Positions 4,872-64,000 of a stretch of DNA of 64,000 nt are shown piece by piece. This DNA comes from Gilliamella sp. ESL0441 (GTDB taxonomy: Bacteria; Pseudomonadota; Gammaproteobacteria; Enterobacterales; Orbaceae). Each line of letters opens with the position of its first letter. Positions within the stretch are counted from its first letter, which is position 1. The notes under the pieces are model-generated. The model worked only from the letters and a program-made list of their open reading frames with translations. It did no database searches and had not been told where the DNA came from. Location: NCBI RefSeq assembly GCF_019469185.1, contig NZ_CP048264.1, positions 1,798,001 to 1,862,000 of the forward strand, in the 5' to 3' direction. Position numbers and translations under genes: made by a program.

Positions 4872-4876
4872 GTTAT

Positions 4877-5057
4877 TCATCTCTGGGATGTTCGCGATTA
4901 AGGGTTAGTCCCCTGAGCCGATATTCTTTATTTTAGAATGACGTGACTTTTAATTGGTGTGTATGCCTTTATATAAGGAAACCTAAAAATTAAAACGCGT
5001 TGTTCACCTTGAGCCTTGGGTTCAAGGGTTACGACCCTAACGACATCTTGGAGTGTT
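4877..5057 (+). ncRNA. ssrS: 6S RNA
   Basis: Regulatory RNA that mimics an open promoter and sequesters sigma-70 RNA polymerase in stationary phase. The 5' part reads CTCTGGGATGTTCGC and later AGTCCCCTGAGCCGATATT. The 3' part reads GGTTCAAGGGTTACGACC and CGACATCTTGGAG. These match the two closing strands of E. coli 6S RNA, and CTCTGGGATG can pair with CATCTTGGAG. The position between zapA and fau is the conserved one. The ends are estimated. Confidence 0.92.
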
Positions 5058-5082: not shown

Positions 5083-5628
5083 ATGAATATCCGTCAGATT
5101 ATTCGTCAAAAGAGGCGCCAATTATCTCATCATGAACGTGCAATGGCACAGCAATTAGTCTATCAAAAAATAGCTAATCATTCTGCGATTCATCAAGCAA
5201 GTAATATAGCCATATTTTTATCTTTTGATGGCGAAATCGAAACAAAACCTATTATTGAATACTTGTGGCAACAAAATAAATCTGTCTATTTACCTATTAT
5301 CCATCCTTTTGTGTCCACTCATTTACTTTTTATTCAATACACTCCTAACAGTCAATTAATCAAAAATAAGTACGGTATACTTGAACCTGTTTTAAATGTA
5401 TTAGATGTCATTCCCTATCAAAAATTGGATATTGTTTTCACCCCTTTAGTTGCATTCGATAATCGAGGTTATCGTCTGGGAATGGGGGGAGGATTTTATG
5501 ATCGCTTGCTAGCTAATTATAAAGCAGACCAAATTTTACCTATTGGTTTAGGTTTTGCCTGCCAAAAAGTTCAGCGGCTTCAAAATCAGCCATGGGATAT
5601 ACAATTACCCGAAATTATTTATGCCTAA
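5083..5628 (+). CDS. fau: 5-formyltetrahydrofolate cyclo-ligase
   Basis: 181 residues (E. coli YgfA/Fau 182). Converts 5-formyl-THF to 5,10-methenyl-THF using ATP. The signature GMGGGFYDR is at about residues 145-153, and basic residues RQKRRQLS near the N-terminus match the family start. I start at ATG 5083; an upstream GTG at 5053 lies within the 6S RNA end. It follows ssrS and is probably co-transcribed with it. Confidence 0.92.
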   Translation: MNIRQIIRQKRRQLSHHERAMAQQLVYQKIANHSAIHQASNIAIFLSFDGEIETKPIIEYLWQQNKSVYLPIIHPFVSTHLLFIQYTPNSQLIKNKYGILEPVLNVLDVIPYQKLDIVFTPLVAFDNRGYRLGMGGGFYDRLLANYKADQILPIGLGFACQKVQRLQNQPWDIQLPEIIYA

Positions 5629-7647: not shown

Positions 7648-8400
7648 TTATTTATTTTTTTGTCTGACTATCTCAAATAAGCAAACGCCCGTTGCTACCG
7701 AGACATTAAGCGAAGACACAATTCCCGCCATTGGAATACTGACCAATTCATCACAATGTTCTTTGGTTAATCGTCGCATTCCTTCCCCTTCTGCGCCCAT
7801 AACCAAAGCCAATGGAATACTCGTTGATGATTTGTAAAAGTCAGTTTGATAAAGTGTACGTTCTGCTTCTCCAGCCGTGCCCACAATCCACACGCGATAC
7901 TCATCTTGTAACATTCGCATGGTACGCGCTAAATTGGTAACCCGAACAACAGGGATACTTTCAGCGGCTCCACAAGCTACTTTTTGTGCCGTCGAATTAA
8001 GCGGAGCCGAACGATCTTTCGGGACTATAATAAAATTAACCCCTGCTGCGTCTGCTGTTCTGATGCAGGCGCCAAGATTATGCGGATCTGTCACGCCATC
8101 TAAAATCAAAATAACGGGATTGGGTTGCTGTTCCATCAATAATGGAATATCATTTTCCTGATAACCACGACAAGGTTTTACTACAGCTAAAATACCTTGA
8201 TGTACACCATTTTTAGATTTGTCATCTAACCACTGGCGGTGGGTTATTTTAACGATTAAACCAAGTTGCTCTATTTCATGCACAAGACTATTAAGACGTT
8301 TATCTTCTCGCCCTTTAGCGATGTAAACCTCAATAATTCTTTCAGGAGCACGTGTTAATAGTGCTTCGATAGCATGAATACCATAAACTGTTTCACTCAT
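7648..8400 (-). CDS. rlmB: 23S rRNA (guanosine-2'-O-)-methyltransferase RlmB
   Basis: 250 residues (E. coli 243). SpoU/TrmH-type knotted methyltransferase that 2'-O-methylates G2251 of 23S rRNA from S-adenosylmethionine. The N-terminal substrate-binding domain starts YGIHAIEALL. SPOUT motifs are LDGVTDPHNLGACIRTADAAG (motif 1, shown in part), VMGAEGEGMRRL (motif 2) and IPMAGIVSSLNVSVATGV (motif 3 with knot). The gene follows rnr directly, with no gap, as in enterobacteria. Confidence 0.95.
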   Translation of the reverse strand: MSETVYGIHAIEALLTRAPERIIEVYIAKGREDKRLNSLVHEIEQLGLIVKITHRQWLDDKSKNGVHQGILAVVKPCRGYQENDIPLLMEQQPNPVILILDGVTDPHNLGACIRTADAAGVNFIIVPKDRSAPLNSTAQKVACGAAESIPVVRVTNLARTMRMLQDEYRVWIVGTAGEAERTLYQTDFYKSSTSIPLALVMGAEGEGMRRLTKEHCDELVSIPMAGIVSSLNVSVATGVCLFEIVRQKNK

Positions 8401-10830
8401 CTATTTTTTACTCTTTACTTTCTTACTTTTAGCCGTTTTACTTGTTGATGTCGAGGCGATTTTAGTCGCATTTTTATCTACCTTTTTGCGCTTTCCTTTA
8501 TTTTTATTTGTCGCTTTGACCTTTTTTTTAACGCTGCCACTCACTACCGATTTTTTATTTTTACGCTTTTTAGTCGACGCAACATCCTTATCATTTTTAT
8601 CATTTAGCTGTTTAGCCTTAGTTTTTGCGGTTTTGCCTTGCCGTTTAGGCTTATTATTACTACTGACCAAGGCAAAATCAATTTTTCTTTCTTCAGGATT
8701 AACATTTTCTACTTTAACGCTAACTTTATCACCTAAACGGTAACTGTAATGGGTATTTTCACCAATTAAACGATTTCGTGAAGCGTCATAAATATAATAA
8801 TCATTCTCAAGCGATGAAACATGTACCAGACCGTCTATAAACAGATCATCTAATCTGACAAAAAACCCGAAGTTCACAACACTTGATATGGTACCATTAA
8901 AGACTTCACCCACATGATCTTGCATATAATCACACTTGAGCCAATCAACCACATCACGCACAGCCTCATCGGCTCGACGCTCAGTCAGTGAACAATGTTC
9001 GCCAAAATAGAGCATTTCGTTAACGGTATAACGATGCCCTCCTGTCTTACTGGTTTTATGCTGTTCATTGGCTAATATCCACTTAATGGTTCGATGTAAC
9101 AGTAAATCCGGATAACGTCGAATTGGCGAGGTAAAATGGCCATACTCTTCAAGTGCAAGCCCAAAATGACCCCGATTTTCTGGATCATAAATCGCTTGTT
9201 TCATCGATCGTAAAATAACTGTCTGTAACATATCACTATCAATTCGATCTTCTATCGCTAGCATCAATTCGGCAATATCTTTTGATTTTGGATTAATACC
9301 GCCACCTAACGATAATCCTAGTTCTTGTAAGATGCTACGTAAGTTATTCATTCGCTCTTCATCTGGACGATCATGAACACGAAACAAAGCAGGTACTTCG
9401 GCCTCAATCACCAGTTTTGCCGCTGCAACATTAGCTAAAATCATACACTCTTCAATAATCTTATGTGCATCATTACGTTGCGCTAACTCAATACTTTCGA
9501 TCCGTTTATCAGCATTAAAAATAAATTTCGGTTCTTCCGATTCAAAACCAATCGCTCCACGAGTAATTCTCGACTTATCCAATACTTTGTATAAACCATA
9601 TAAGTTTTCTAAATGTGGCACTAAATCATGATAATGTTGACGGAGTTCTTCATCACCATCTAAAATTTTTGCAACTTTGGTGTAAGTCAATCTTGCATGT
9701 GAGTTCATCACAGCGTCGTAAAATTGATAACCGGTCAAACGACCTTTGTTTGATATGGTCATCTCACAAACTAAACATAGTCTATCTACCTGTGGATTAA
9801 GCGAACAAAGACCATTTGATAACGCTTCTGGCAACATCGGCACGACACGAGAAGGAAAATAGACTGATGTACCACGTAAGCAAGCTTCTTTATCAAGTGC
9901 TTTATCGGGTCTGACGTAATAGCTAACATCAGCTATTGCCACCCATAATCTATAACCTCCACCACGATTTTTTTGGCAATACACGGCATCATCAAAATCA
10001 CGTGCATCTTCACCATCAATGGTGACTAAAGGTAGATCCCGTAGATCTTTACGTCCTTTTTTAGCTTTTTCAGGCACTTCATCACCGAATTTACTCACCT
10101 CTTTTTCAACAGCTTTAGGAAATTCATATGGGATTTCATGATTACGAAGTGCAATATCAATGGCTAAGTTTGTGCCCATGATTTCGCCAAGGACTTCTTT
10201 AATGATACCGACCGCTTTTTGGCGACGTTCAGGGCGTTGTTGTAACTCAACAACGACGACCGCTCCCATGCGTACAGTGCGTTTCGGTTTACCAGTGATT
10301 AAAATATCAAAATTTAAGCGACTATCATCCGGCACCACAAATCCAACGCCTTGTTCAATAAAGTAGCGACCAACAATTAAATTACTGCGGGGCTCTAAAA
10401 TACGCACAACACGTGCTTCTGTTTTTCCGCGATATTGGTTACTCAGTGGTTGGGCTAAAATCACATCACCTTGTAAGACTTTTTTCATCTGTTCTGGCGA
10501 TAAAAAGTAATCTTCAGGTTTTCCTTCAACACGTAAAAAGCCAAAACCATCACGGTGTGCAATCACCTTCCCCTTAACCATATCTAACTTTTCAGGAAGT
10601 GCATAACATTTACGGCGAGTGAACACGACTTGACCATCGCGTTCCATTGCACGCAAGCGACGATGTAATGCTTCTTTTTGTTCTTCATTTTTGATAGAAA
10701 CGGCTTGAGCAATTTTTTCTAAGCTAGCAGGTTTCGCCTCTTTGGTAAGGTAATCTAAAATTAACTCACGACTGGCTATCGGAGAATCATATTTCTGCGC
10801 TTCTCGTTCATAAAATGGATCGTTTATCAT
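8401..10830 (-). CDS. rnr: Ribonuclease R
   Basis: 3'-5' exoribonuclease of the RNB family that can degrade structured RNA. Order: N-terminal helix-turn-helix-like segment, cold-shock domains ([16 protein letters not shown]), RNB catalytic domain with the Asp cluster [16 protein letters not shown]1 domain ([19 protein letters not shown]), and a long Lys-rich tail. The start at 10830 ([22 protein letters not shown], 809 residues) aligns with E. coli Rnr. An upstream start at 10866 would add 12 unrelated residues. rlmB follows without a gap. Confidence 0.95.
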
Positions 10831-54295: not shown

Positions 54296-55180
54296 ATGTT
54301 TTTTCTTTCTAAATTATTTAAACCCCTAAATACTCATCCAAAATCCGTTAACAATTGGCTTGATGAATATATTACAATTCTTGCCGAACGTAATTTAAAA
54401 CCCAAAACAATCGAAATAAAAACGTATTTGCTAAAAGTTATCCGTCAGCAAATAGGCGCTAAACCGATCTCCCAAATAACACCACCCGATGTTGCAAAAA
54501 TTATCAAAATCTATACAGATCAAGATAAAGCTCCGTCCGCTAAGTGCATGTATCACTTACTTAAAGATATCTTCCGAGAAGCATACGCACTGGGCTGGAA
54601 TGACAGGAACCCCGCCGAACCAATAAAATGTCCTAAAGTTACTGTGAAACGTTCACGAATGACATTTGTTGAGTTTAAGAAAATTTTAAATGAGGCGGAA
54701 AAAACAGGAAATAAAATAATGTATGATGCTATGACGCTTGCGCTAGTTACAGGGCAACGCCGTTCAGATATAGCAGAAATGAAAAAATCAAATATTAAAC
54801 GAAATTATTTATTAATAGATCAATATAAAACAGGTGCAAAAATCGCGCTACCGATAAAATTGGAATGTAAAAAAATAAGCACTAGTTTACGAGACATTAT
54901 TGAATCAACTGATAATGACTATTTAATATGTCGCAACAATGAAAAAATAAAATTAGACGATATAACGCGTCAATTTTCACGATTACGTGATAGAGTTTAT
55001 AGCCGAAATTACTGGGACGGAACACCTACCACATTTCACGAAATCAGGTCGCTGTCAGAGCGTTTATATAGAGAACAACGCATTGACACCATGACATTAT
55101 TGGGTCACAAATCCCAGCAAATGACTGATAAATATAATGATAGTCGAGGTCGTGAGTATAAAAAACTGAGAATAAATTAA
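54296..55180 (+). CDS. Lambda-Int-like tyrosine recombinase without arm-binding domain (candidate tail-fibre invertase)
   Basis: 294 residues. Colinear with lambda Int from about Int residue 78 on: NNWLDEYITILAERNLKPKT (core-binding), GKAASAK-like DKAPSAKCMYHLLKDIFREA, then the catalytic domain. All six catalytic residues are visible: R155 (TGQRRSD), K178 (YKTGAKIALP), H248 and R251 (TFHEIRS), H271 (LLGHKS) and Y280 (TDKYND). The N-terminal arm-binding domain of Int is replaced by about 17 unrelated residues. Its stop codon directly abuts the 20-bp repeat at 55181. An ordinary prophage integrase is the alternative. Confidence 0.88.
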   Translation: MFFLSKLFKPLNTHPKSVNNWLDEYITILAERNLKPKTIEIKTYLLKVIRQQIGAKPISQITPPDVAKIIKIYTDQDKAPSAKCMYHLLKDIFREAYALGWNDRNPAEPIKCPKVTVKRSRMTFVEFKKILNEAEKTGNKIMYDAMTLALVTGQRRSDIAEMKKSNIKRNYLLIDQYKTGAKIALPIKLECKKISTSLRDIIESTDNDYLICRNNEKIKLDDITRQFSRLRDRVYSRNYWDGTPTTFHEIRSLSERLYREQRIDTMTLLGHKSQQMTDKYNDSRGREYKKLRIN

Positions 55181-55200
55181 ACCTATTTACGTGGTAGGTA
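55181..55200 (+). repeat. Left 20-bp inverted recombination site
   Basis: ACCTATTTACGTGGTAGGTA. Identical, in inverted orientation, to 57018-57037; identity stops exactly at both ends. Within it ACCTA and TAGGT form an imperfect dyad around a 9-base asymmetric centre, as expected for a tyrosine-recombinase core site. Confidence 0.85.
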
Positions 55201-55754
55201 GTCATTTAGTTTGTTCTGACTGGATAGGGAGATGGGAATTAATGCCATTTCGTCGTGATGAATTGCCGTTCGGCTGGTATTTTAGGAACGGAGACAATTA
55301 TTTACTCAGTTCGCCACAGGGGCAGGCTCTAAATAGTTTATCTACTAATTATAAAAACGATCATCGTATTACGATTAAAATCATTAACGGTTTACAATAT
55401 ATTAATGTTCCGACAGCGTTTGCGCCAGATGGTCGAGGTTTTTTTATACGTGCTGTTAATGGGATTACTCGACAGGTAGGTCATGTTGAGGATGACGCAA
55501 TTCGCAATATACGGGGTGGTTTAGTGCATGTTATGCAGTGGCGTGGTAGTGTCCCGTCCGGTGTTTTTAGTTTACGCCCCTCGAATGGCGGGTCAGGGTT
55601 AAATAATAGACATGCATCGGTCGTTTGTAATGTTAACGATTCCGATTACCCAGAGAGACCAATAATATTTGACGCATCACAATCGGTACCAACAGCAAAT
55701 GAAAATAGGGTTTTGAATGTTGGAGCGACCCCAGCTATCTATTTAGGAGTTTAA
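55182..55754 (+). CDS. Silent alternative tail-fibre C-terminal cassette
   Basis: 190 residues counted from the repeat (PIYVVGSHLVCSDWIGRWEL...). The frame has no ribosome site and no convincing start; a GTG at 55191 lies inside the repeat. Its frame relative to the repeat is the same as in the expressed fibre gene, where PIYVVG also occurs, so inversion would fuse it in frame to the N-terminal 287 residues. The sequence has fibre-tip features (GFFIRAVNGI, RPSNGGSGLNNRHASVVC). It ends one base before the downstream Tfa gene. Confidence 0.75.
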   Translation, partial: PIYVVGSHLVCSDWIGRWELMPFRRDELPFGWYFRNGDNYLLSSPQGQALNSLSTNYKNDHRITIKIINGLQYINVPTAFAPDGRGFFIRAVNGITRQVGHVEDDAIRNIRGGLVHVMQWRGSVPSGVFSLRPSNGGSGLNNRHASVVCNVNDSDYPERPIIFDASQSVPTANENRVLNVGATPAIYLGV

Positions 55755-55755
55755 A

Positions 55756-56283
55756 ATGATTAATTACTATTTTGATAACACAAACGAATTCAGACCGTAC
55801 ACGCATCAATTAGAGGCTAACAATGACACAATGCCACCCGACAATGCGTTACGGATTGCCCCAGAATTTAGGCGTGGGTATTATCCGTGCGAAAAAAAAG
55901 GTGCGTGGGTGCTCGTCGAGGATCATCGAGAAAAAACAGCCTATAATATCGAAACACAGGAGCCTGTTAAAATTGATTATCTAGGTAAAATAAAATCCGG
56001 TTATACGTTGTTAGAGCCGTTCGAGTTTTGCAAATGGGAAAAAAATAAATGGGTGCTGGATGAGGAGCAAAAAAACACCTATGTTACCCAACAAAACCAA
56101 TCAAAATTAGTAAATTTGTTATCTGAGGTTAATAATGAGATAGATATATTGACCGACAAAATAGAGCTAGATATAGCAACAGATGATGATAAAAAACTAC
56201 TGAAAAAATGGAAATTGTATCGTATACAGCTAAAATCCATTGATACAAATAAATTAGATATTGAATTCCCAGCTAAGCCCTAA
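55756..56283 (+). CDS. Tail fibre assembly protein (Tfa), silent-side copy
   Basis: 175 residues. Tfa-type chaperone for the adjacent alternative fibre tip. Early part YPCEKKGAWVLVEDHREKTAYNIETQEP (shown in part) is the usual Tfa pattern; the C-terminal LTDKIELDIATDDDKKLLKKWKLYRIQL resembles the Tfa on the other strand. GGAG precedes ATG 55756. As the fibre cassette lacks a promoter, this copy is probably off in the orientation shown. The stop overlaps the opposite gene's stop. Confidence 0.8.
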   Translation: MINYYFDNTNEFRPYTHQLEANNDTMPPDNALRIAPEFRRGYYPCEKKGAWVLVEDHREKTAYNIETQEPVKIDYLGKIKSGYTLLEPFEFCKWEKNKWVLDEEQKNTYVTQQNQSKLVNLLSEVNNEIDILTDKIELDIATDDDKKLLKKWKLYRIQLKSIDTNKLDIEFPAKP

Positions 56284-56294
56284 ACGGGCTTTTT
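56275..56294 (+). terminator. Terminator at the centre of the invertible segment
   Basis: AAGCCC (56275-56280) and GGGCTT (56286-56291), followed by T (to 56294). It overlaps the end of the + strand Tfa gene and lies between the two converging gene pairs. Confidence 0.6.
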
Positions 56295-56612
56295 GGGGAA
56301 TGTGACATTTATATTTGAGGTATCCACACGAGTTAATAAAATGCGGTGTTTCTTCCAGTTTTTTAACTGCTCGTCTTCATTAGATTCTTGCATATCCAAA
56401 TCTATAACATCCTGTAAAATAGCTATTTTCTCGTTGGCTTCAGATATTAATGCTGTTTTTATTGATTGATTTTGCAATATAATTTGCTCATCAGACAGAT
56501 GAATAGGCTCAGGATCAACCAGCTTTAGCTTTCCTTTTACCTCTTTTAAAGCTTTGCCTTCTTCATTCGCTTTAATAGCCATTTCGGCGTACTCTTGACT
56601 TGTATATATCAT
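56280..56612 (-). CDS. Tail fibre assembly protein (Tfa), expressed-side copy
   Basis: 110 residues, shorter than the + strand copy and lacking its first 60 or so. MIYTSQEYAEMAIKANEEGKALK, then LQDVIDLDMQESNEDEQLKNWKKHRILLTRVDTSNINVTFPKKP (compare in part), which parallels the + strand copy. It starts one base after the fibre stop, exactly the spacing in the silent pair. Confidence 0.78.
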   Translation of the reverse strand: MIYTSQEYAEMAIKANEEGKALKEVKGKLKLVDPEPIHLSDEQIILQNQSIKTALISEANEKIAILQDVIDLDMQESNEDEQLKNWKKHRILLTRVDTSNINVTFPKKPV

Positions 56613-56613
56613 G

Positions 56614-57897
56614 TTAATGTCCTCTTACTGTCCATCTAATCCAAGCCTCGCCAGCCACGGGTGAATATGATGCTAACCACAGCGAGGCTAGGAATAATTC
56701 TGCGTATGAATATTCAATATCACCCCATATCCCATTATTTATTTTGTCAATGCTAACCCCGTAGTTTTGTGTTTTCATTGGTATTAACAAATTAATAAAA
56801 TTGCCGCAAACGGCATTTGCGTATGGGGTTTTAGCTAGAATTACACTAGATTGTTCAATGAATCCGTTTGAATATTTGTTATACCAGCTATCGCCGTGCA
56901 CATATGACTCAACAATGTATATTCTATTGTTTAACTGATCGATTTTGTTGTTAATATTAGACACATCAGTAATAACTGATTCCCCGTTAACGGTTAATTT
57001 AGCAAAATCAACAGAGTTACCTACCACGTAAATAGGTGATCCGTTTACCTGTTTTTGAACAGCAGGGATGGTACCAATATCATCCGCCGTTGGTTTATTA
57101 TTAGGTGAGTAAACTCGCTGAGAATTTTCAGTTAAATTTTTAACATCTAATGAGCCGTCAATTAACTGACTATCTACACCAGATTTTTTAATGAAAACTG
57201 AAGTGTCAATTGAGGATGCGGCTTTTTTGGCATCCTCTGCCGATTTTTCAGCATTCAGTTCAGATGTTTTGGCGTTGCTCTCGGATAGGCTGGCTGAATT
57301 TGCACTATTACTAGATTTTTGAGCTGAATTACTTGAAGCTGTGGCTGATGAGCTGGCGCTATCAGCACTGTTTTTTGCTGATGCCGCACTATTGAGCGCC
57401 GATGAGCTAGCATCTATGGCTGTATCGGCGTTTTTTGCTGTTTGTTCCGCATAGCTTTTACTTTCCTCTAACAGTTTAGCCAGTTCATTTGAAATTGCAT
57501 ATTGTGATTTTATCGTAACCTGTCGCCCGTCTGGAGCGGTTAGGGTGACCTCGTTTTCACTTGTTAATATTGTGTGCCAAGCGTCAAGTTGAATTTGATA
57601 ATAATTCAGCATTTCGGATATTCGCAACGCTAAAGCCTCAATTGAAACATTGGGCGATGTTGGGATTTCGTAATTAACCCCAGTTTTTGTATCGCCAATA
57701 TATTCATTTGCTAGCGTCAACTGTGTATCAGATTGAACAGACGCTATTTCACATATTTCTATTGAATTTTTTGTTTTTAATATTAACATTTGACCTGAAC
57801 AAACACCAATTAATGGATTTGCCCATTTAGTCTCAATACCCGTTACTGATTTACTACCATTAGTAATTGTAATTGTACCTGTTTTATACCAAGACAT
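56614..57897 (-). CDS. Side tail fibre protein (expressed form)
   Basis: 427 residues from ATG 57897, which has AGGAAAG just upstream (a TTG at 57909 is rejected). The N-terminus MSWYKTGTITITNGSKSVTG is typical of lambdoid tail fibres. An Ala/Ser/Asn-rich stalk (about residues 145-235, SAASAKNSADSASSSATASS) forms a trimeric coiled coil. Pro288 begins the variable tip at the 20-bp repeat; the last 140 residues determine receptor binding if the model is right. Transcribed with J upstream. Confidence 0.88.
   Translation of the reverse strand: MSWYKTGTITITNGSKSVTGIETKWANPLIGVCSGQMLILKTKNSIEICEIASVQSDTQLTLANEYIGDTKTGVNYEIPTSPNVSIEALALRISEMLNYYQIQLDAWHTILTSENEVTLTAPDGRQVTIKSQYAISNELAKLLEESKSYAEQTAKNADTAIDASSSALNSAASAKNSADSASSSATASSNSAQKSSNSANSASLSESNAKTSELNAEKSAEDAKKAASSIDTSVFIKKSGVDSQLIDGSLDVKNLTENSQRVYSPNNKPTADDIGTIPAVQKQVNGSPIYVVGNSVDFAKLTVNGESVITDVSNINNKIDQLNNRIYIVESYVHGDSWYNKYSNGFIEQSSVILAKTPYANAVCGNFINLLIPMKTQNYGVSIDKINNGIWGDIEYSYAELFLASLWLASYSPVAGEAWIRWTVRGH
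57018..57037 (-). repeat. Right 20-bp inverted recombination site, inside the fibre gene
   Basis: Reads ACCTATTTACGTGGTAGGTA on the - strand, coding PIYVVG at residues 288-293 of the fibre. Exact inverted copy of 55181-55200. It marks the border between constant stalk and variable tip. Confidence 0.85.
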
Positions 57898-57968: not shown

Positions 57969-58655
57969 CTATTGATATTTTCTAATATCTATAAAGGGGA
58001 TGTTTTCAATTTTTGGGAAATTTGTAATATGCTTTCCTTTAATATTGACTAATAGATGAAGACAAACACTCTCATTTATTGCTGTAGAAAAAATATCAAA
58101 TATCAAATTCCCGAATGTTGGCAAGTTAAATAATTTTGATCCGTAAACAGTACATAAAACAGCGACAGGAAAACCAAGTTCAATTTTCAAGCTATTTCTT
58201 TCAAGAGTTTGTTTGCTTTTATTAAACAAATTATGGTCTGGCACCCTACAAAAATCCATTTCAAGCGGTTTGCATGAATTGTTATAAACAAGATTATGTT
58301 TTTCATTATAAATTTCTAACCCATAACTAGTTAACCTTGGTACATAGTTTGCAAACAAATAAACTTCTAAATTAAATTCAAAGTTATTACTATAAGCAAT
58401 TTCTATAAACTTAAATCCGTTAATTGAGCGCACAGATGAAACCATCGCTGGAGCATCTTCAATTAACCCTACAGCTCTCACGAATGGAAGCACAATATGT
58501 ACATCTGAAATTCCCGTATTAATATTTATTTTTCTGATTTTTATATTTCCCCTAGGAATTGTCACATTTATTTTTTTTATAAAATTCATGGGGGTTACAT
58601 TTGGTGATATAAAAACTTGCCCAGCATTATTTTTGATTGTCAGTCCATAACTCAT
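57969..58655 (-). CDS. Phage protein of the J-downstream SYGL family
   Basis: 228 residues of unknown function. It starts MSYGLTIKNNAGQVFISPNV, a pattern found in proteins encoded after tail-tip J in many lambdoid phages (DUF6453-like, from memory). Mostly beta-strand pattern. It overlaps the preceding 91-residue gene by 4 bases and may be a paralogue of it. Confidence 0.6.
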   Translation of the reverse strand: MSYGLTIKNNAGQVFISPNVTPMNFIKKINVTIPRGNIKIRKININTGISDVHIVLPFVRAVGLIEDAPAMVSSVRSINGFKFIEIAYSNNFEFNLEVYLFANYVPRLTSYGLEIYNEKHNLVYNNSCKPLEMDFCRVPDHNLFNKSKQTLERNSLKIELGFPVAVLCTVYGSKLFNLPTFGNLIFDIFSTAINESVCLHLLVNIKGKHITNFPKIENIPFIDIRKYQ

Positions 58656-58927
58656 TTATTACCTCTCAAAAAAACAAAAATATCAAATGAATACCCCCTA
58701 CTGGTCCAAGTCAAGGTTTCATTGTCGATCCTAACATCTAAAAAAACTTCTGAGATATTTTCACCGAATGACGAGACCCAATTCATTGTAAACATATCAA
58801 GATCAAAGCTATATTTTTTTTGCCCACTACTTCCCGAATTAATGCGAAAAAAATCTAAAACATAGACAGGACTAATAAAATTAATAACATCTCGTTGATT
58901 ATCATCAAAAACCTGTATTCCAAACAT
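58652..58927 (-). CDS. Small phage protein after J
   Basis: 91 residues. MFGIQVFDDNQRDVINFISP resembles the start of the following 228-residue protein. Likely virion-associated or moron-type. Starts 5 bases after the J stop and ends in an ATGA overlap. Function unknown. Confidence 0.6.
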   Translation of the reverse strand: MFGIQVFDDNQRDVINFISPVYVLDFFRINSGSSGQKKYSFDLDMFTMNWVSSFGENISEVFLDVRIDNETLTWTSRGYSFDIFVFLRGNK

Positions 58928-58932
58928 AATTA

Positions 58933-61900
58933 TTACCTCAACTTCCCAAGTTTGACACGCAACAATCCTCTTTCATCGAAAACTTTAACGCCCTCATTAT
59001 TAATTAACACCTTACTTTGTCCCTCAAAAATTCCATTTATTTCAAATTGTCCATTTTTATGCAAAACCCATCCAGTCCGACCCTGCACATAATTATCGGA
59101 TTGAATTGAATTCGCAATTTTTGCGCTAGTGATTGATGCGTCCTTGATTTTTGCGTTTGTGATTGTTCCATCCCCTATAACAGCATCATTAATAATCACT
59201 TGATCTCCATGCGTTGTGAATACTGTTTGAGGATTTCCATTGGCTGAGTTCATGATTGAAAAACGATCTTGAAGAAAAATGACATTGCTTTGCATTCCAT
59301 GTTCAGTGTTTTCAACCCCCATTGTCATACCTGCAACATACTGTTGACCTTTGTCATCCACTTCAACTTTCATTGTGCGATGAGCTGAAACTTTACCATT
59401 TAAATTGTTTACCGTTTCACTGACATCTGAAATGGTGGTAGAAACATCTCCAACTTTTGTGTTAATTGCCTGTATTGATTTGGCAGTAGCGGCATTTTGT
59501 TCCGCTGTTGTCTGTTTTAATTCGGATAAGTTGCTATTTATACTACCGTATTTGGTGTTCAGCTCCTTTAAAGCAATGGCAGTTGTTTCTTTCTCAGTTA
59601 ATAACACTGAATGAGTTTCTTGAATTTCAGCGGACAAGTTGCCGTTTTCAATTCTACGGCGTCGTGTCTCTGTATCATTTGCCAACGCATTTTCAATAAT
59701 TGATTTAGCGTTCTCAATTGAACTTACAGCGGTATTATCCACCGAATCTACAATCGAGTTCCAAGCGTCTGTTTCTTTTATTTCTTCAAAAATATGGTCT
59801 GTCAAATCGTTAGTATTGGTACTTGAAACACCTCTAACCCAATCTGTCCAATCACTGATGTTACCAATTTTATCGACAAGACGAGCACGGTAGAAAAACT
59901 GTTGACCTATAGCTAACCCTGTCTGAGAATAATTGCAAGTTGGGTAACTAACATTGCTTAATAGCAGGGCATTTTCTTCATTTTCAGTCAAACTATATTG
60001 AATTTCTGTGTAACTACTATCTCCGCTTCCAATTGGAAACGACCAATTAAGGTCAATACCAAATACCACACTTTCGCTAGCAGTAAAGTCTACTGGTCTG
60101 TCAGGTTTACCAACTTTTCCTTTGATTGCTTTGGCTTGTGAATAGGCCCAAGGTGAAGATGCATCAATCGCATTTACTGCTCGTACTCGAACTTCATAAA
60201 CACCGGCGTAAACACCTTCGACGGTAAAATTCGTTCCATTAGTTCGACCAATATTAATCCAAGACGAATTATCTTTTCTCCATTGAGCAATATAGTTTGT
60301 CGCACCCTCTACCACATCCCAAGAAGCTTGTAATGATGCCACTGACAGGCCTTGAGATATATAACTACTTTCTGATAAAACAATATTTTTGGGGGATGAA
60401 ACTGAACTTGGCGGAGTAACTGTTATTGGTTTTGGCTCTAATCGTATACCTTGATCTATATATTTGAATTTATTTGGATCATGATGAATAGCCGTAATTG
60501 TAAACTGACCTTCATTAGACGATGATATTGAGGTTACTCTATAATACTGAATAGCGATATTATCACTATCAATACACCATACTGCGCCAGCAACTGGTGT
60601 CAGTTTATAATTAGCCGTAACAGTGAGTGTTTTTTTGTCTGTACTAATCGCTCTAATCGTTCGGCTTTGCGCAGTGCCATCCGGTAAATTAAGGACTAAC
60701 CGATCGCCCACATCATATTCAACGGCTCTATCTAATGTGATTTTTCGTCCTTCAACGGCGTGAATACGCCCGCCATTTTCTTTGCCAGAACGAGAAGGGT
60801 CAGCAATCCCAATGATTCGCGCAGGTAAAGGAATATAGCCATCGAGTCCTACTGAAAATGTGATCACTTCATCTTTTGCATTAGAAAGTAAAGCCCAACG
60901 TCCACGTCGTTGCGCTTCAGCTTGCGAAGTACAACCTATCGCTGTTAATTTCATGACATTGACATCATAACGACGCATCAAGTCATGGTCCCACACAGCC
61001 TCAACATCATCACAATAATGATTGTTAGGATCAGAATATGCAACTAAACAGGATGTATAACGATTTTTATATGAACCACCAGAATAGGTAAAATCGCCAA
61101 TAACATTAGAAGGATGATAGATAAAATCTGGTTCATCTTGCGGCATATCTGCGGTTAAACAGATCTGATCATTCCCCCAAAATATAATGCCCCGAAATGA
61201 AGCCACTAAATCTTTTAGAACGTTATAAGCCTCTTCTTGACTTTGTATATATTCATTACAAGCAAAGCGAGGTTCCATGCCACCTCGACCATCCGGCACC
61301 ATTTGATCACAATACTGACCTAATTGGTAAATTGACCATTTATCGAGCATTGTTGAGTCAATTCTTACCCCCATACCTGCTATCTCATCACGCATCAAAT
61401 AATAAGAAAGCCAAGCAGGATTATTGGTATATGCCATTTTAAATCCACCTGTCCAAGTGCCTGAATAGGTCCTGTTTACTGGATCATAATTGTCTGGTAC
61501 TTGGACAATTTTTCCTTTCAGTTTACAACTAATTTTAGGAATAGAACCATTAAATTGGCTAGCATCTAACTCGATATAAAGTAGAGCGGTATTAGGATAC
61601 CGTAATTTACTGTCAATAATTTCCGCATATGAAAAAACACTAAACGCATTAATCAATTTATTCGATTTTGAATCAGGTGTTAGTCGTCTAACACGTATAC
61701 TCCACCCTTCTAATGCATTTGGTAAATTGATGCGATGATCTCGCTGATATTCTGAGGTTGTTTTTCCATTAAATTCACCACGAATAATCGTTTCAAACGC
61801 ACTGCCATCTGTTGATAAGTCAATAGTATACTTGGTAACAGTTCCTACCGTATCACCATTTTCTTTATAATGTAAATGACTTGGTAAACTTAATTTGATT

Positions 61901-62253
61901 CTTATGGCATCTAATTCTAGATTACTAAATGATCGTATCCAAGGATTGTCAGATTTTACTGTAAAAGCGGCTTTTAACTCATTACTTATCTCAGGTATTC
62001 CTTGAATATAATCTTGCGTTTGGGCACCATTACGAAATTCCCATGCAACACCATTAAAATTACGTGTGCCATCGAGATTGGCTAGTGGAGTATTATCAAT
62101 GAATATATTTTGTTCTGTTAGATCGCCTTGAATTTCCCCTTCACTTAATGCTAAAAGCACTTTGAGCTTTGCTGTTGAAAGCAAATTATCGGGTTGTTCA
62201 TAAGGTCTATGTTGTTTTTTTTTACCGCCCTTTTGACCTTCTATTAATTGCAT
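58933..62253 (-). CDS. J: Tail tip host-specificity protein J
   Basis: 1106 residues (lambda J 1132). Central tail fibre that contacts the receptor. N-terminal KVLLALSEGEIQGDL and IFIDNTPLANLDGT, the baseplate-hub part GTWTGGFKMAYTNNPAWLSYYL, two fibronectin type III domains (about residues 615-810), a coiled coil (about 830-960), and a beta-rich tip ending ERGLLRVKLGKLR. It follows L-K-I in the lambda order. Confidence 0.93.
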   Translation of the reverse strand: MQLIEGQKGGKKKQHRPYEQPDNLLSTAKLKVLLALSEGEIQGDLTEQNIFIDNTPLANLDGTRNFNGVAWEFRNGAQTQDYIQGIPEISNELKAAFTVKSDNPWIRSFSNLELDAIRIKLSLPSHLHYKENGDTVGTVTKYTIDLSTDGSAFETIIRGEFNGKTTSEYQRDHRINLPNALEGWSIRVRRLTPDSKSNKLINAFSVFSYAEIIDSKLRYPNTALLYIELDASQFNGSIPKISCKLKGKIVQVPDNYDPVNRTYSGTWTGGFKMAYTNNPAWLSYYLMRDEIAGMGVRIDSTMLDKWSIYQLGQYCDQMVPDGRGGMEPRFACNEYIQSQEEAYNVLKDLVASFRGIIFWGNDQICLTADMPQDEPDFIYHPSNVIGDFTYSGGSYKNRYTSCLVAYSDPNNHYCDDVEAVWDHDLMRRYDVNVMKLTAIGCTSQAEAQRRGRWALLSNAKDEVITFSVGLDGYIPLPARIIGIADPSRSGKENGGRIHAVEGRKITLDRAVEYDVGDRLVLNLPDGTAQSRTIRAISTDKKTLTVTANYKLTPVAGAVWCIDSDNIAIQYYRVTSISSSNEGQFTITAIHHDPNKFKYIDQGIRLEPKPITVTPPSSVSSPKNIVLSESSYISQGLSVASLQASWDVVEGATNYIAQWRKDNSSWINIGRTNGTNFTVEGVYAGVYEVRVRAVNAIDASSPWAYSQAKAIKGKVGKPDRPVDFTASESVVFGIDLNWSFPIGSGDSSYTEIQYSLTENEENALLLSNVSYPTCNYSQTGLAIGQQFFYRARLVDKIGNISDWTDWVRGVSSTNTNDLTDHIFEEIKETDAWNSIVDSVDNTAVSSIENAKSIIENALANDTETRRRRIENGNLSAEIQETHSVLLTEKETTAIALKELNTKYGSINSNLSELKQTTAEQNAATAKSIQAINTKVGDVSTTISDVSETVNNLNGKVSAHRTMKVEVDDKGQQYVAGMTMGVENTEHGMQSNVIFLQDRFSIMNSANGNPQTVFTTHGDQVIINDAVIGDGTITNAKIKDASITSAKIANSIQSDNYVQGRTGWVLHKNGQFEINGIFEGQSKVLINNEGVKVFDERGLLRVKLGKLR

Positions 62254-62260
62254 AATCCAC

Positions 62261-62863
62261 CTATTGTTGATCTTCTGAATAAATACCCGCGTTAATCACT
62301 GCGCCACCAATTTCACGATTACCTAATAAAACAGGAACAGGATATCCCACCGCATTGGTATTAACGGGCGCCCCAAAACCATAATTAGGCTTATTTTCAG
62401 TATTTGATGCCCCACCTGCGTTAAATTTAGGCTGAGGGGTAAGTAATTGCACAATGCCACCTAATGCCATGCTCAAACCAATACTAGCTAAAACTGAAGA
62501 TGCAGTAATTTCAGCACCCAATAGCGTTAAAGAGGCACCACCAGTAAAGAAAGCACCAATTAAAGCAACGGCTCCGATCACAACTTGTAATAAACCACCA
62601 CTTTTGGCGCCTTGAGCTATCGGCATAATCATATAATTTTTGCCATTAACATTAATATCAAACTCATCGATTCCAATATTTTTTCCATCCACAAAAAAGG
62701 CAAACTTAATGCCTTTTAAATGAGCCGTACTCATATATTTTTCAAATCCTTTTATTGTCGCACAAAGTGCGCGTAGCAATTCACGGATATTGTTTACGTC
62801 ATACGTATGCTTTTTTCCAAATTGCCTTGCCATTGCACCTTTCAAAGTTAACTTACTGAGCAT
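62261..62863 (-). CDS. I: Tail assembly protein I
   Basis: 200 residues from ATG 62863 (lambda I 223). N-terminal half folds like a ubiquitin-like domain (VNNIRELLRALCATIKGFEKYM), followed by a Gly/Ala hydrophobic stretch (about 95-155) and a tail with PVPVLLGNREIGGAVINAG. It starts 11 bases inside the end of K. Longer in-frame starts up to 63013 lie in K and are rejected. Confidence 0.85.
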   Translation of the reverse strand: MLSKLTLKGAMARQFGKKHTYDVNNIRELLRALCATIKGFEKYMSTAHLKGIKFAFFVDGKNIGIDEFDINVNGKNYMIMPIAQGAKSGGLLQVVIGAVALIGAFFTGGASLTLLGAEITASSVLASIGLSMALGGIVQLLTPQPKFNAGGASNTENKPNYGFGAPVNTNAVGYPVPVLLGNREIGGAVINAGIYSEDQQ

Positions 62864-63575
62864 TAAATAACTCCTTATGCCGCACAATGCGAACAGTTCT
62901 ATCTCGAAAATATTTACCGTAAGGTGTACGTGTAGATAATTGACCGTACAGGTGGTGTAAAATAAGATTATCCCCCACATAAATAGCAGCATGATTTGTG
63001 ACTTGCGAACCAATGCGCATCATAACTATGTCCCCGACTTTCATTTCATTCAGACCGACTTCAACAAATCCTTCTGCTTGCCAATTATCATCATAAAGAT
63101 GCTCTTTCCCACTATCCCACCATTCTCGTGGCACTGAATAATTGTTTAATTTAATCCCATATTCACGATCATAATAATCCATTATTAATGACCAACAATC
63201 AGCGTGACCAAGCAACCATTGCCGTCCGGTATAATCTCGATTTATTCGTGGCGATATTGTGCAAAAATCACCATCAGGGGCAGACATTATTCCCCATTCA
63301 ATACCTGTATAATCACATTGAATACGGTCAAACTCTGACGGAACCAGTGACGTAACATCAGGATGAGAATGAATAATCATGATAATTTCACCTTGTTTTT
63401 CTGCAGCTAACTGTTCTTCTGGTGATATTAAAAAATGCGCTTGTGGATTATCTGAAATGTTTTTACAAGGTAGATAGATCTGTTTTTTTCCCGTATCAAT
63501 AATGAATCCACAAGCTTCATTTGGGTATTCGCTATCCACATGCTTTTTGATTGAATCAAGTAATTTTTGTCGCAT
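62853..63575 (-). CDS. K: Tail assembly protein K (JAMM peptidase plus NlpC/P60)
   Basis: 240 residues from ATG 63575 (lambda K about 245). N-terminal Mov34/JAMM domain with EACGFIID, HSHPDVTSLVPSEFD (zinc-binding). C-terminal NlpC/P60 domain with the catalytic Cys in GHADCWSLIMDYY and His in VTNHAAIYVG. Probably cuts peptidoglycan or processes the tip during assembly. The start at 63635 would run into L and is rejected. Confidence 0.9.
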   Translation of the reverse strand: MRQKLLDSIKKHVDSEYPNEACGFIIDTGKKQIYLPCKNISDNPQAHFLISPEEQLAAEKQGEIIMIIHSHPDVTSLVPSEFDRIQCDYTGIEWGIMSAPDGDFCTISPRINRDYTGRQWLLGHADCWSLIMDYYDREYGIKLNNYSVPREWWDSGKEHLYDDNWQAEGFVEVGLNEMKVGDIVMMRIGSQVTNHAAIYVGDNLILHHLYGQLSTRTPYGKYFRDRTVRIVRHKELFNAQ

Positions 63576-63576
63576 A

Positions 63577-64000
63577 TTACTTACCTTGAAGATTAGCCGC
63601 AGGAAAACCGCCAAACGGAAGAGGTTTATTACCATGTCGGGCTTTACAATCTTTTAATAGTCCTCCACATTCATCTTTTGCCGGATCATCAACGGCAATT
63701 CCGTCTTTGGTGAAAAACTTATTTCCAGCATAATCACAGCCTGTACCTGAGCGGTACCATCCGCGCATACACCAAGTACATAGTGTTGTGATTTGCCTGG
63801 TAGGCAATTGTAAATTTTGAATATCAAATGGCGAACAAAGTTCAAATTCAACAATAGCTTTCGTTTCTTCGCGTTTATTATTAATAAAAAATAATTGAAC
63901 TCTTTCTTGAGTTGGATCGGCTGTGGCATTACCTGCTAACCAGTTGTCTGAATCAAGGTATTTTGCCATTGTGGTATGAATTTTTACTCTCGCTTGAACT
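63577..64000 (-). CDS. L: Minor tail protein L (5' end outside the window)
   Basis: The frame is open to the window edge, so the gene begins beyond 64000; the ATG at 63969 is internal (the upstream residues VQARVKIHTT fit lambda L). Carries NPTADPTQE-like NATADPTQERVQLFFI and the Cys cluster CTWCMRGWYRSGTGCDYAG and DECGGLLKDC, probably a metal or iron-sulfur site. K starts 2 bases after its stop. Confidence 0.9.
   Translation of the reverse strand, partial: VQARVKIHTTMAKYLDSDNWLAGNATADPTQERVQLFFINNKREETKAIVEFELCSPFDIQNLQLPTRQITTLCTWCMRGWYRSGTGCDYAGNKFFTKDGIAVDDPAKDECGGLLKDCKARHGNKPLPFGGFPAANLQGK

Follow-up and report, generated by a model that had tools for sequence, protein, structure and literature searches.

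What exchanges the ends of a tail-fibre gene in the bee-gut symbiont Gilliamella sp. ESL0441, and what kind of particle would the exchanged ends serve? The question is raised by a pair of inverted repeats, one of them inside the fibre gene, in a 64,000-nucleotide stretch of its genome (the window; positions 1,798,001 to 1,862,000 of contig NZ_CP048264.1, whose own numbering from 1 is used below unless another contig is named). Our analysis makes it very probable that site-specific inversion switches the locus between two states and so exchanges the binding tip of an F-type tailocin (a headless, non-contractile phage tail); an adjacent recombinase that resembles lambda integrase (Int) without its arm-binding domain (“arm-less” below) most likely acts on the two 20-bp sites. 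An earlier, sequence-only reading had proposed an invertible two-tip segment with matched Tfa genes, carried by a prophage that changes its host range in the manner of Mu, P1 and e14; the segment has stood, and the prophage and the Mu/P1/e14 model fit poorly (below).

The inverted repeats and the segment between them

The 20-mers at 55181–55200 (+) and 57018–57037 (−) are exactly identical in inverted orientation and 1,817 nt apart, and the sequences directly outside them diverge at both copies. Allowing up to 3 mismatches, the window has no further copy of this repeat (100 shuffles gave a mean of 0.00 and a largest count of 0), and with up to 2 mismatches the whole genome (2,754,041 bases) has none either. 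One perfect inverted repeat with arms of 20 bp or more, no further than 5 kb apart, is present in the window, against none in 60 of 60 dinucleotide-preserving shuffles; for shorter pairs, at least one was found in 1 of the 60 shuffles at 18 bp and in 11 of the 60 at 16 bp. In each of the two putative recombination sites, an asymmetric centre is framed by short inverted arms, ACCTA/TAGGT.

Between the repeats lie two opposed cassettes, each a fibre tip followed by its own Tfa gene. The expressed fibre (56614–57894, −; 426 amino acids, matching tail fibre PHROGs) most likely starts at the ATG at 57894, behind GAGGAAAG, and consists of a constant stem of 286 residues, the motif PIYVVG and a 134-residue tip (tip B); the right repeat falls inside its gene, after residue 286, and the 110-residue Tfa of tip B is encoded at 56280–56612 (−; PF02413, phrog_188). 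The left repeat heads a silent cassette with tip A (184 residues; 55182–55754, +, including a PIYVVG junction), which has a weak match to the tail collar fibre family phrog_523 (E 7.5e-05) and expressed counterparts in protein P0126 and strain wkB308 (below), and then the 175-residue Tfa of tip A (55756–56283, +; PF02413, phrog_105). PIYVVG is encoded in frame at the left and right repeat alike, so that the locus has inverted sites, one of them in an expressed fibre gene and in frame with a silent tip, as an invertible fibre-tip switch should; there are two sites and two tips only, and not the larger set of interchangeable cassettes that makes a shufflon. The sequence-only reading had these features right: the exact repeats ending where identity ends, the mirror-image tip/Tfa pairs, the placement of the repeats relative to the fibre reading frames and the shared frame. 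It had also called the left cassette start-less, which is fair, since the first in-frame start is a GTG inside the repeat and the cassette has none of its own outside it. Because the recombinase gene to its left reads towards this cassette, read-through transcription into it is possible.

Tips A and B gave no match to each other by BLASTP at E 10. The structure model of tip A was poor (means of 10-residue blocks 23–81, mostly <50) and no interpretation was drawn from it. The model of tip B (residues 331–426, block means 68–92) has the ends of the R1 and R2 pyocin fibres as its best PDB matches, with TM-scores of at most 0.23 by query length and up to 0.66 by target length, a predicted likeness that we treat as a lead only.

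Both orientations occur in related genomes

A comparison of related genomes for the opposite orientation, suggested as a check in the sequence-only reading, found it in wkB308, in P0126 and, at another locus, between genomes G014 and G032. In Gilliamella sp. wkB308 (L017, taken to be contig 40 of G008) the genes beside a prmB-like gene are in the same order, and the repeat pair is exact over 19 bp; the flanks are collinear with those of the window at 96.7% and 98.7% identity, and the interior is reversed, with the joins at the repeat. The expressed wkB308 fibre carries tip A (GSPIYVVG-GHLVCSDW) with the 175-residue Tfa, and tip B with the 110-residue Tfa is silent. P0126, from a 4,508-base contig, is 477 amino acids long, exactly the length predicted for the flipped fibre, and its stem is 99% identical over 286 residues and is followed by PIYVVG and by 184/184 residues of the silent tip A. 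When the best 120 of 145 fibre matches and the window's own fibre were typed by tip, 97 of the 121 could be assigned (58 A, 39 B), and stems were compared for the 51 of these 97 with a full-length stem. Among the matches listed, near-identical stems carry opposite tips: P0144/P0160 (100% over 292 residues), P0123/P0143 (99.65%) and P0125/P0146 (99.6%). At the other locus, the silent tip of G014 (L036) is the expressed one on G032 contig 148 (L039), and here too the inner segment is reversed relative to the flanks, with the join at the site. The two cassettes, each tip with its matched Tfa, thus have good support as an invertible segment.

Assembly breaks offer a further, circumstantial observation. 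In wkB308 the repeat forms the very start of contig 41, whose initial 1,166 bases match the end of contig 40 without a difference; on contig 37 the site is 18 bases from the contig start, and 2 of the 4 site copies in this genome are within 36 bases of a contig end. Both site copies of G028 (one with a pattern mismatch) lie one base from a contig end. The chance that a given site lies so near a contig end is ~0.0013 in wkB308 and ~0.0007 in G028 (contig counts rounded), and such breaks would be expected if the sequenced DNA had held both orientations.

Two details of the G014/G032 locus may be recorded here. The G032 recombinase gene (L039 238–924) is truncated, its end running into cassette sequence, and this switch is possibly locked. 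In G014 (L036 6511–9633) a gene read as vgrG borders the set of fibre, two tips and recombinase on one side and other genes border it on the other; no tail genes were seen in the 14 kb examined.

The tail cluster resembles a tailocin more than a prophage

Upstream of the fibre gene are two small genes (57969–58927, −; phrog_425, phrog_557), the gene for the 1106-residue tail tip protein J (58933–62253, −; PF24801, PF09327, PF13550; phrog_31) and tail genes I, K and L (62261–64000, −; L by position and length only). The cluster extends past the window to ~72.9 kb (L012), and from that end its order is Gam-like gene, Q-like antiterminator, holin, endolysin, Rz, Rz1, tail terminator, major tail protein, two chaperone-type genes, tape measure, M, L, K, I, J, the two small genes, fibre and Tfa. 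Lambda-type tail genes are thus combined with a lysis cassette, as in F-type tailocins, and the cluster proteins searched (all but L and a few small open reading frames) gave no match to a head, portal or terminase family. Since lysis and tail genes are present without head, portal or terminase genes, the cluster probably encodes a tailocin of the F type, in which case a flip should shift the range of bacteria that it kills; judged from its genes, the particle would probably be a headless phage tail that its bee-gut host uses as a weapon against rival bacteria.

The prophage with changeable host range of the sequence-only reading fits this gene content poorly. In such a case the head genes would have been lost recently or would act from elsewhere, a view favoured by the phage-type Q antiterminator and Gam-like gene in the cluster and by the integrase-type recombinase at one of its ends; however, the tail terminator follows the lysis genes with no head module between them, a second cluster of the genome is similarly laid out (as is that of G016, from open reading frames only), and tail clusters lie beside the same prmB-like gene in wkB308 and G011, so that we consider a prophage improbable. 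The genes beyond the cluster ends are that methyltransferase gene, read as prmB, with aroC, and prc- and proQ-like genes (names read from sequence). The G011 cluster (L090 8462–13497), a lambda-type tail cluster, has two complete fibre and Tfa pairs in tandem and no recombinase match.

The adjacent recombinase is the most likely catalyst

The stop codon of the gene for a 294-residue tyrosine recombinase (54296–55180, +; PF00589), our proposed invertase, directly abuts the left repeat; at a second locus of this genome (locus 2, below) and in G014 the stop falls inside the repeat. Its nearest solved relatives are lambda Int (PDB 1z1b, 5j0n), with which it shares a core-binding and a catalytic part at ~38% identity (J02459). 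Because the alignment covers lambda residues 74–355, the N-terminal arm-binding domain of lambda Int is missing from the Gilliamella enzyme, which differs from the lambda system also in that no att-like copy was found at the element's other end. When 17 proteins were aligned with lambda Int, the window's recombinase was seen to keep R155, K178, H248, R251, H271 and Y280, which stand opposite what we take to be the catalytic residues of lambda and are putatively catalytic here.

Mu Gin, P1 Cin and e14 Pin, which invert fibre segments, are serine invertases. The likeness on which the sequence-only reading relied, two tips with assembly genes on an invertible segment, is real, but the enzyme differs: no serine recombinase (PF00239) was detected in this genome, a control search finding the family in 10 of 14 named genomes, and it is a tyrosine recombinase that adjoins the left repeat. 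Inversion by Gin and Cin is treated in PMC6109161 and that of e14 in PMC4272514.

The recombinase is present in 9 of 35 Gilliamella genomes (13 matches, E ≤ 1e-20), and an 18-base site pattern with at most 1 mismatch in 6 of the 35; the reversed control pattern had 0 matches. At 5 loci in 4 genomes (the window, locus 2, wkB308, G014 and G011) the recombinase has an exact inverted site pair next to it, and these pairs always bracket tips. A single site is on the contig of the recombinase matches in G028 and G032 contig 148, and viral contig L149 likewise has a single site. The matches with no site on the sequence examined are a degenerate copy in G016, one cut by the contig end (G008 contig 20), two with stops inside (G032 contig 1, G023) and two fragments (G031, G008 contig 7). 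The recombinase of G016 lies beside a lambda-type tail without a site pair (L038 8019–8065 / 8536–8582 and 8284–8526, −), where a short reversed reading frame resembles the remnant of a second tip; this switch, too, may be locked.

These distributions bear on two other roles for the recombinase. It could be the integrase of the element, the repeats being att sites or their remains and inversion a by-product; its membership in the lambda-Int family, its position at the border with host genes and the integrase-like appearance of arm-less relatives in phage ZF40 and genome G060 would suit that role. Against it, there is no third site copy (the next best match in 53–84 kb has 5/19 mismatches), the left and right flanks share chance-level stretches only, and at the 5 paired loci the sites flank tips, and we regard it as highly improbable. 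Direct matches between the flanks were likewise at chance level, with the ends of the element placed only approximately. Alternatively, homologous recombination or another cell recombinase could invert the segment with the neighbouring gene a bystander. We think this very unlikely: 20 bp is short for homologous recombination, no serine recombinase was detected, and recombinase gene and site occur together at all 5 paired loci. In its favour are 8 other PF00589 matches in the genome, a catalytic role of the neighbour that is only proposed, and Xenorhabdus tailocins, which are reported to invert with no invertase in the locus (PMC13280938).

With the neighbouring recombinase as the most likely catalyst, its protomers would bind the short inverted arms of both sites, strands would be exchanged across the asymmetric centre and the 1.8-kb segment would invert, so that the constant stem runs on in frame, through PIYVVG, into tip B (110-residue Tfa) or tip A (175-residue Tfa), with the matching Tfa moving along behind its tip. 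Where within the site the strands are cut, and that flipping is ongoing in a growing population, we infer; the particle would be a headless killer and its two tips would bind different bacteria.

Some observations weigh against this interpretation. Both orientations are known between strains or species and not within one clone; 6 of the 13 Gilliamella recombinase matches are without a site on the sequence examined; P0001, the closest database homologue, and P0054 have Cys in place of Y280, and some copies may be inactive; the lack of head functions holds for the cluster proteins searched; and ZF40 encodes an arm-less integrase around which, for 10 kb in each direction, no tail gene is annotated, while G060 has an arm-less relative near a lambda-type tail without a repeat pair. 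Because these last two have no fibre switch, the wider arm-less family likely includes integrases as well. The truncated or site-less recombinases of G032 and G016 and the Cys of P0001 would also suit a fossil switch, in which both orientations were fixed long ago and change no more. Set against that are the window's recombinase, which keeps the putative catalytic residues, its exact repeats and the contig breaks at the site in wkB308 and G028; a fossil seems to us unlikely.

Relatives of the recombinase

In a tree of 124 sequences thinned to 77 rows, the six site-bearing Gilliamella recombinases included (window, locus 2, wkB308, G014, G011, G028) fall within one 29-row group with support 100/100, which also contains G016 and database proteins of unknown context. 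With its root unplaced, the tree does not give the direction of arm loss. Its arm labels were set by length, which gives a wrong label to P0090 (383 residues, no PF09003 listed). Of 394 genomes sampled across the order, 8 match the recombinase at E ≤ 1e-90: six Gilliamella, G060 and G371. G371 was rejected as an arm-less relative, its protein being a full-length lambda-type Int. Megablast found no phage relatives; tblastn matched 108 phage records, and the best 40 of the 108 are mostly lambda-type phages with an annotated integrase at 38–40% identity, a few being unannotated at the matched place. L019, L020 and L022 are distant matches (24–28% identity), and plasmids gave no match to the Salmonella-type arm-less integrase P0086.

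Neither the recombinase (at E 1e-15) nor a pair of the window's site was found at the 29 of 40 viral-contig fibre loci examined (L105–L133). The site pattern occurs in 11 stretches of viral contigs, of which 4 were examined and the remaining 7 have single sites; L154/L155 duplicate L015/L037 and L151 duplicates wkB308 contig 37, and these were not counted again. The fibre regions of L118 and L120 have a different exact inverted pair, of 22 bp (4872–4893 / 5390–5411), and the L119 fibre locus has another, of 16 bp.

A second, putative switch in the same genome

The genome has a contractile tail cluster at ~1,514–1,531 kb, with sheath (phrog_205), baseplate, tape measure and a CI-like repressor. 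No capsid, portal or terminase family was found among the 10 of its proteins searched; its matches to phrog_587, phrog_280 and phrog_2557 (fibre) are to families of structural proteins in the head-and-packaging category. The recombinase of locus 2 is 83% identical to that of the window, and the locus has a 21-bp site pair, two tips of its own and one identified Tfa gene. The lysis regions of the lambda-type and contractile clusters are 90.8% identical over 1,595 bp. The fibre stems of the lambda-type cluster, locus 2 and P2-like clusters match each other over 13–17 residues only, with weak E-values, and all join their tips at P[IT]YxVG.

The central seven bases of the site, as we divide it, are TTACGTG at the window and the corresponding F-type locus of wkB308 and TTATGAG at the other sites compared. 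Tyrosine recombinases generally need identical overlaps; because the centres differ, the two switches of this genome are predicted not to recombine with each other. We give about even weight to a broader idea, that one lineage of arm-less lambda-type integrases has turned into a portable module for tip switching, made up of the recombinase, a site at the 3′ end of its gene and two tip/Tfa cassettes, that has been set on unrelated stems of lambda-type, contractile and P2-like Gilliamella clusters, and that the two modules here, kept apart by TTACGTG versus TTATGAG, belong to two headless tails that change targets independently.

Relation to known systems

The nearest precedents are carotovoricin with Ein and the Rin shufflon. 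Carotovoricin, a Pectobacterium tailocin, is contractile, and its Ein is a serine invertase, whereas in Gilliamella a lambda-type tail is combined with a tyrosine recombinase; the two are alike in that the fibre tip of a tailocin, in Gilliamella a probable one, is switched by inversion beside a gene for an invertase, in Gilliamella a proposed one. Inversion of the carotovoricin Er fibre by Ein is credited to Nguyen et al. 2001 by PMC13195805 and PMC12090994, and the invertase gene ein is reported in 172 of 365 carotovoricin loci (PMC13195805). The Rin shufflon of Bifidobacterium prophages (PMC6109161) is similar in having an arm-less tyrosine recombinase beside its cassettes, as was found here, with a constant N-terminus, short crossover sites and observed inversions. 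It differs in having several receptor-binding-protein cassettes, 11-bp sites and head-making phages; the Gilliamella locus has two cassettes with Tfa genes, 20-bp sites, a cluster that is headless as judged from its genes alone and an enzyme closest to lambda Int.

Fibre-tip inversion as such is therefore already known from phages and carotovoricin, and its tyrosine-recombinase version in a tailocin is apparently new; among open-licence papers we found none on a Gilliamella tailocin or on a tailocin switch of this type. If correct, our interpretation supplies a tyrosine-recombinase counterpart of the carotovoricin switch in a bee-gut symbiont, with paralogous switches in two tail clusters, and it opens to experiment the idea that bacteria hedge on what their phage-tail weapons recognise. 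It would also raise the questions of how an invertase arises from an integrase and what keeps two switches in one genome from recombining with each other. Xenorhabdus tailocin loci are reported to be inverted between sister strains, with no invertase in the locus (PMC13280938), and the enzyme described here would be a candidate class for such inversions.

Two observations concern the proQ-like gene and its surroundings, beyond the tail cluster. Two genes for phage regulators (L012 12847–13685), one matching phrog_7148 and the other phrog_769, lie between the proQ-like and dedA-like host genes; one of the two has a match resembling a Mu-type transposase, and the ProQ-like coding sequence itself is apparently tandemly repeated (L012 11384–12776), as frames of 323 and 134 residues with similar starts.

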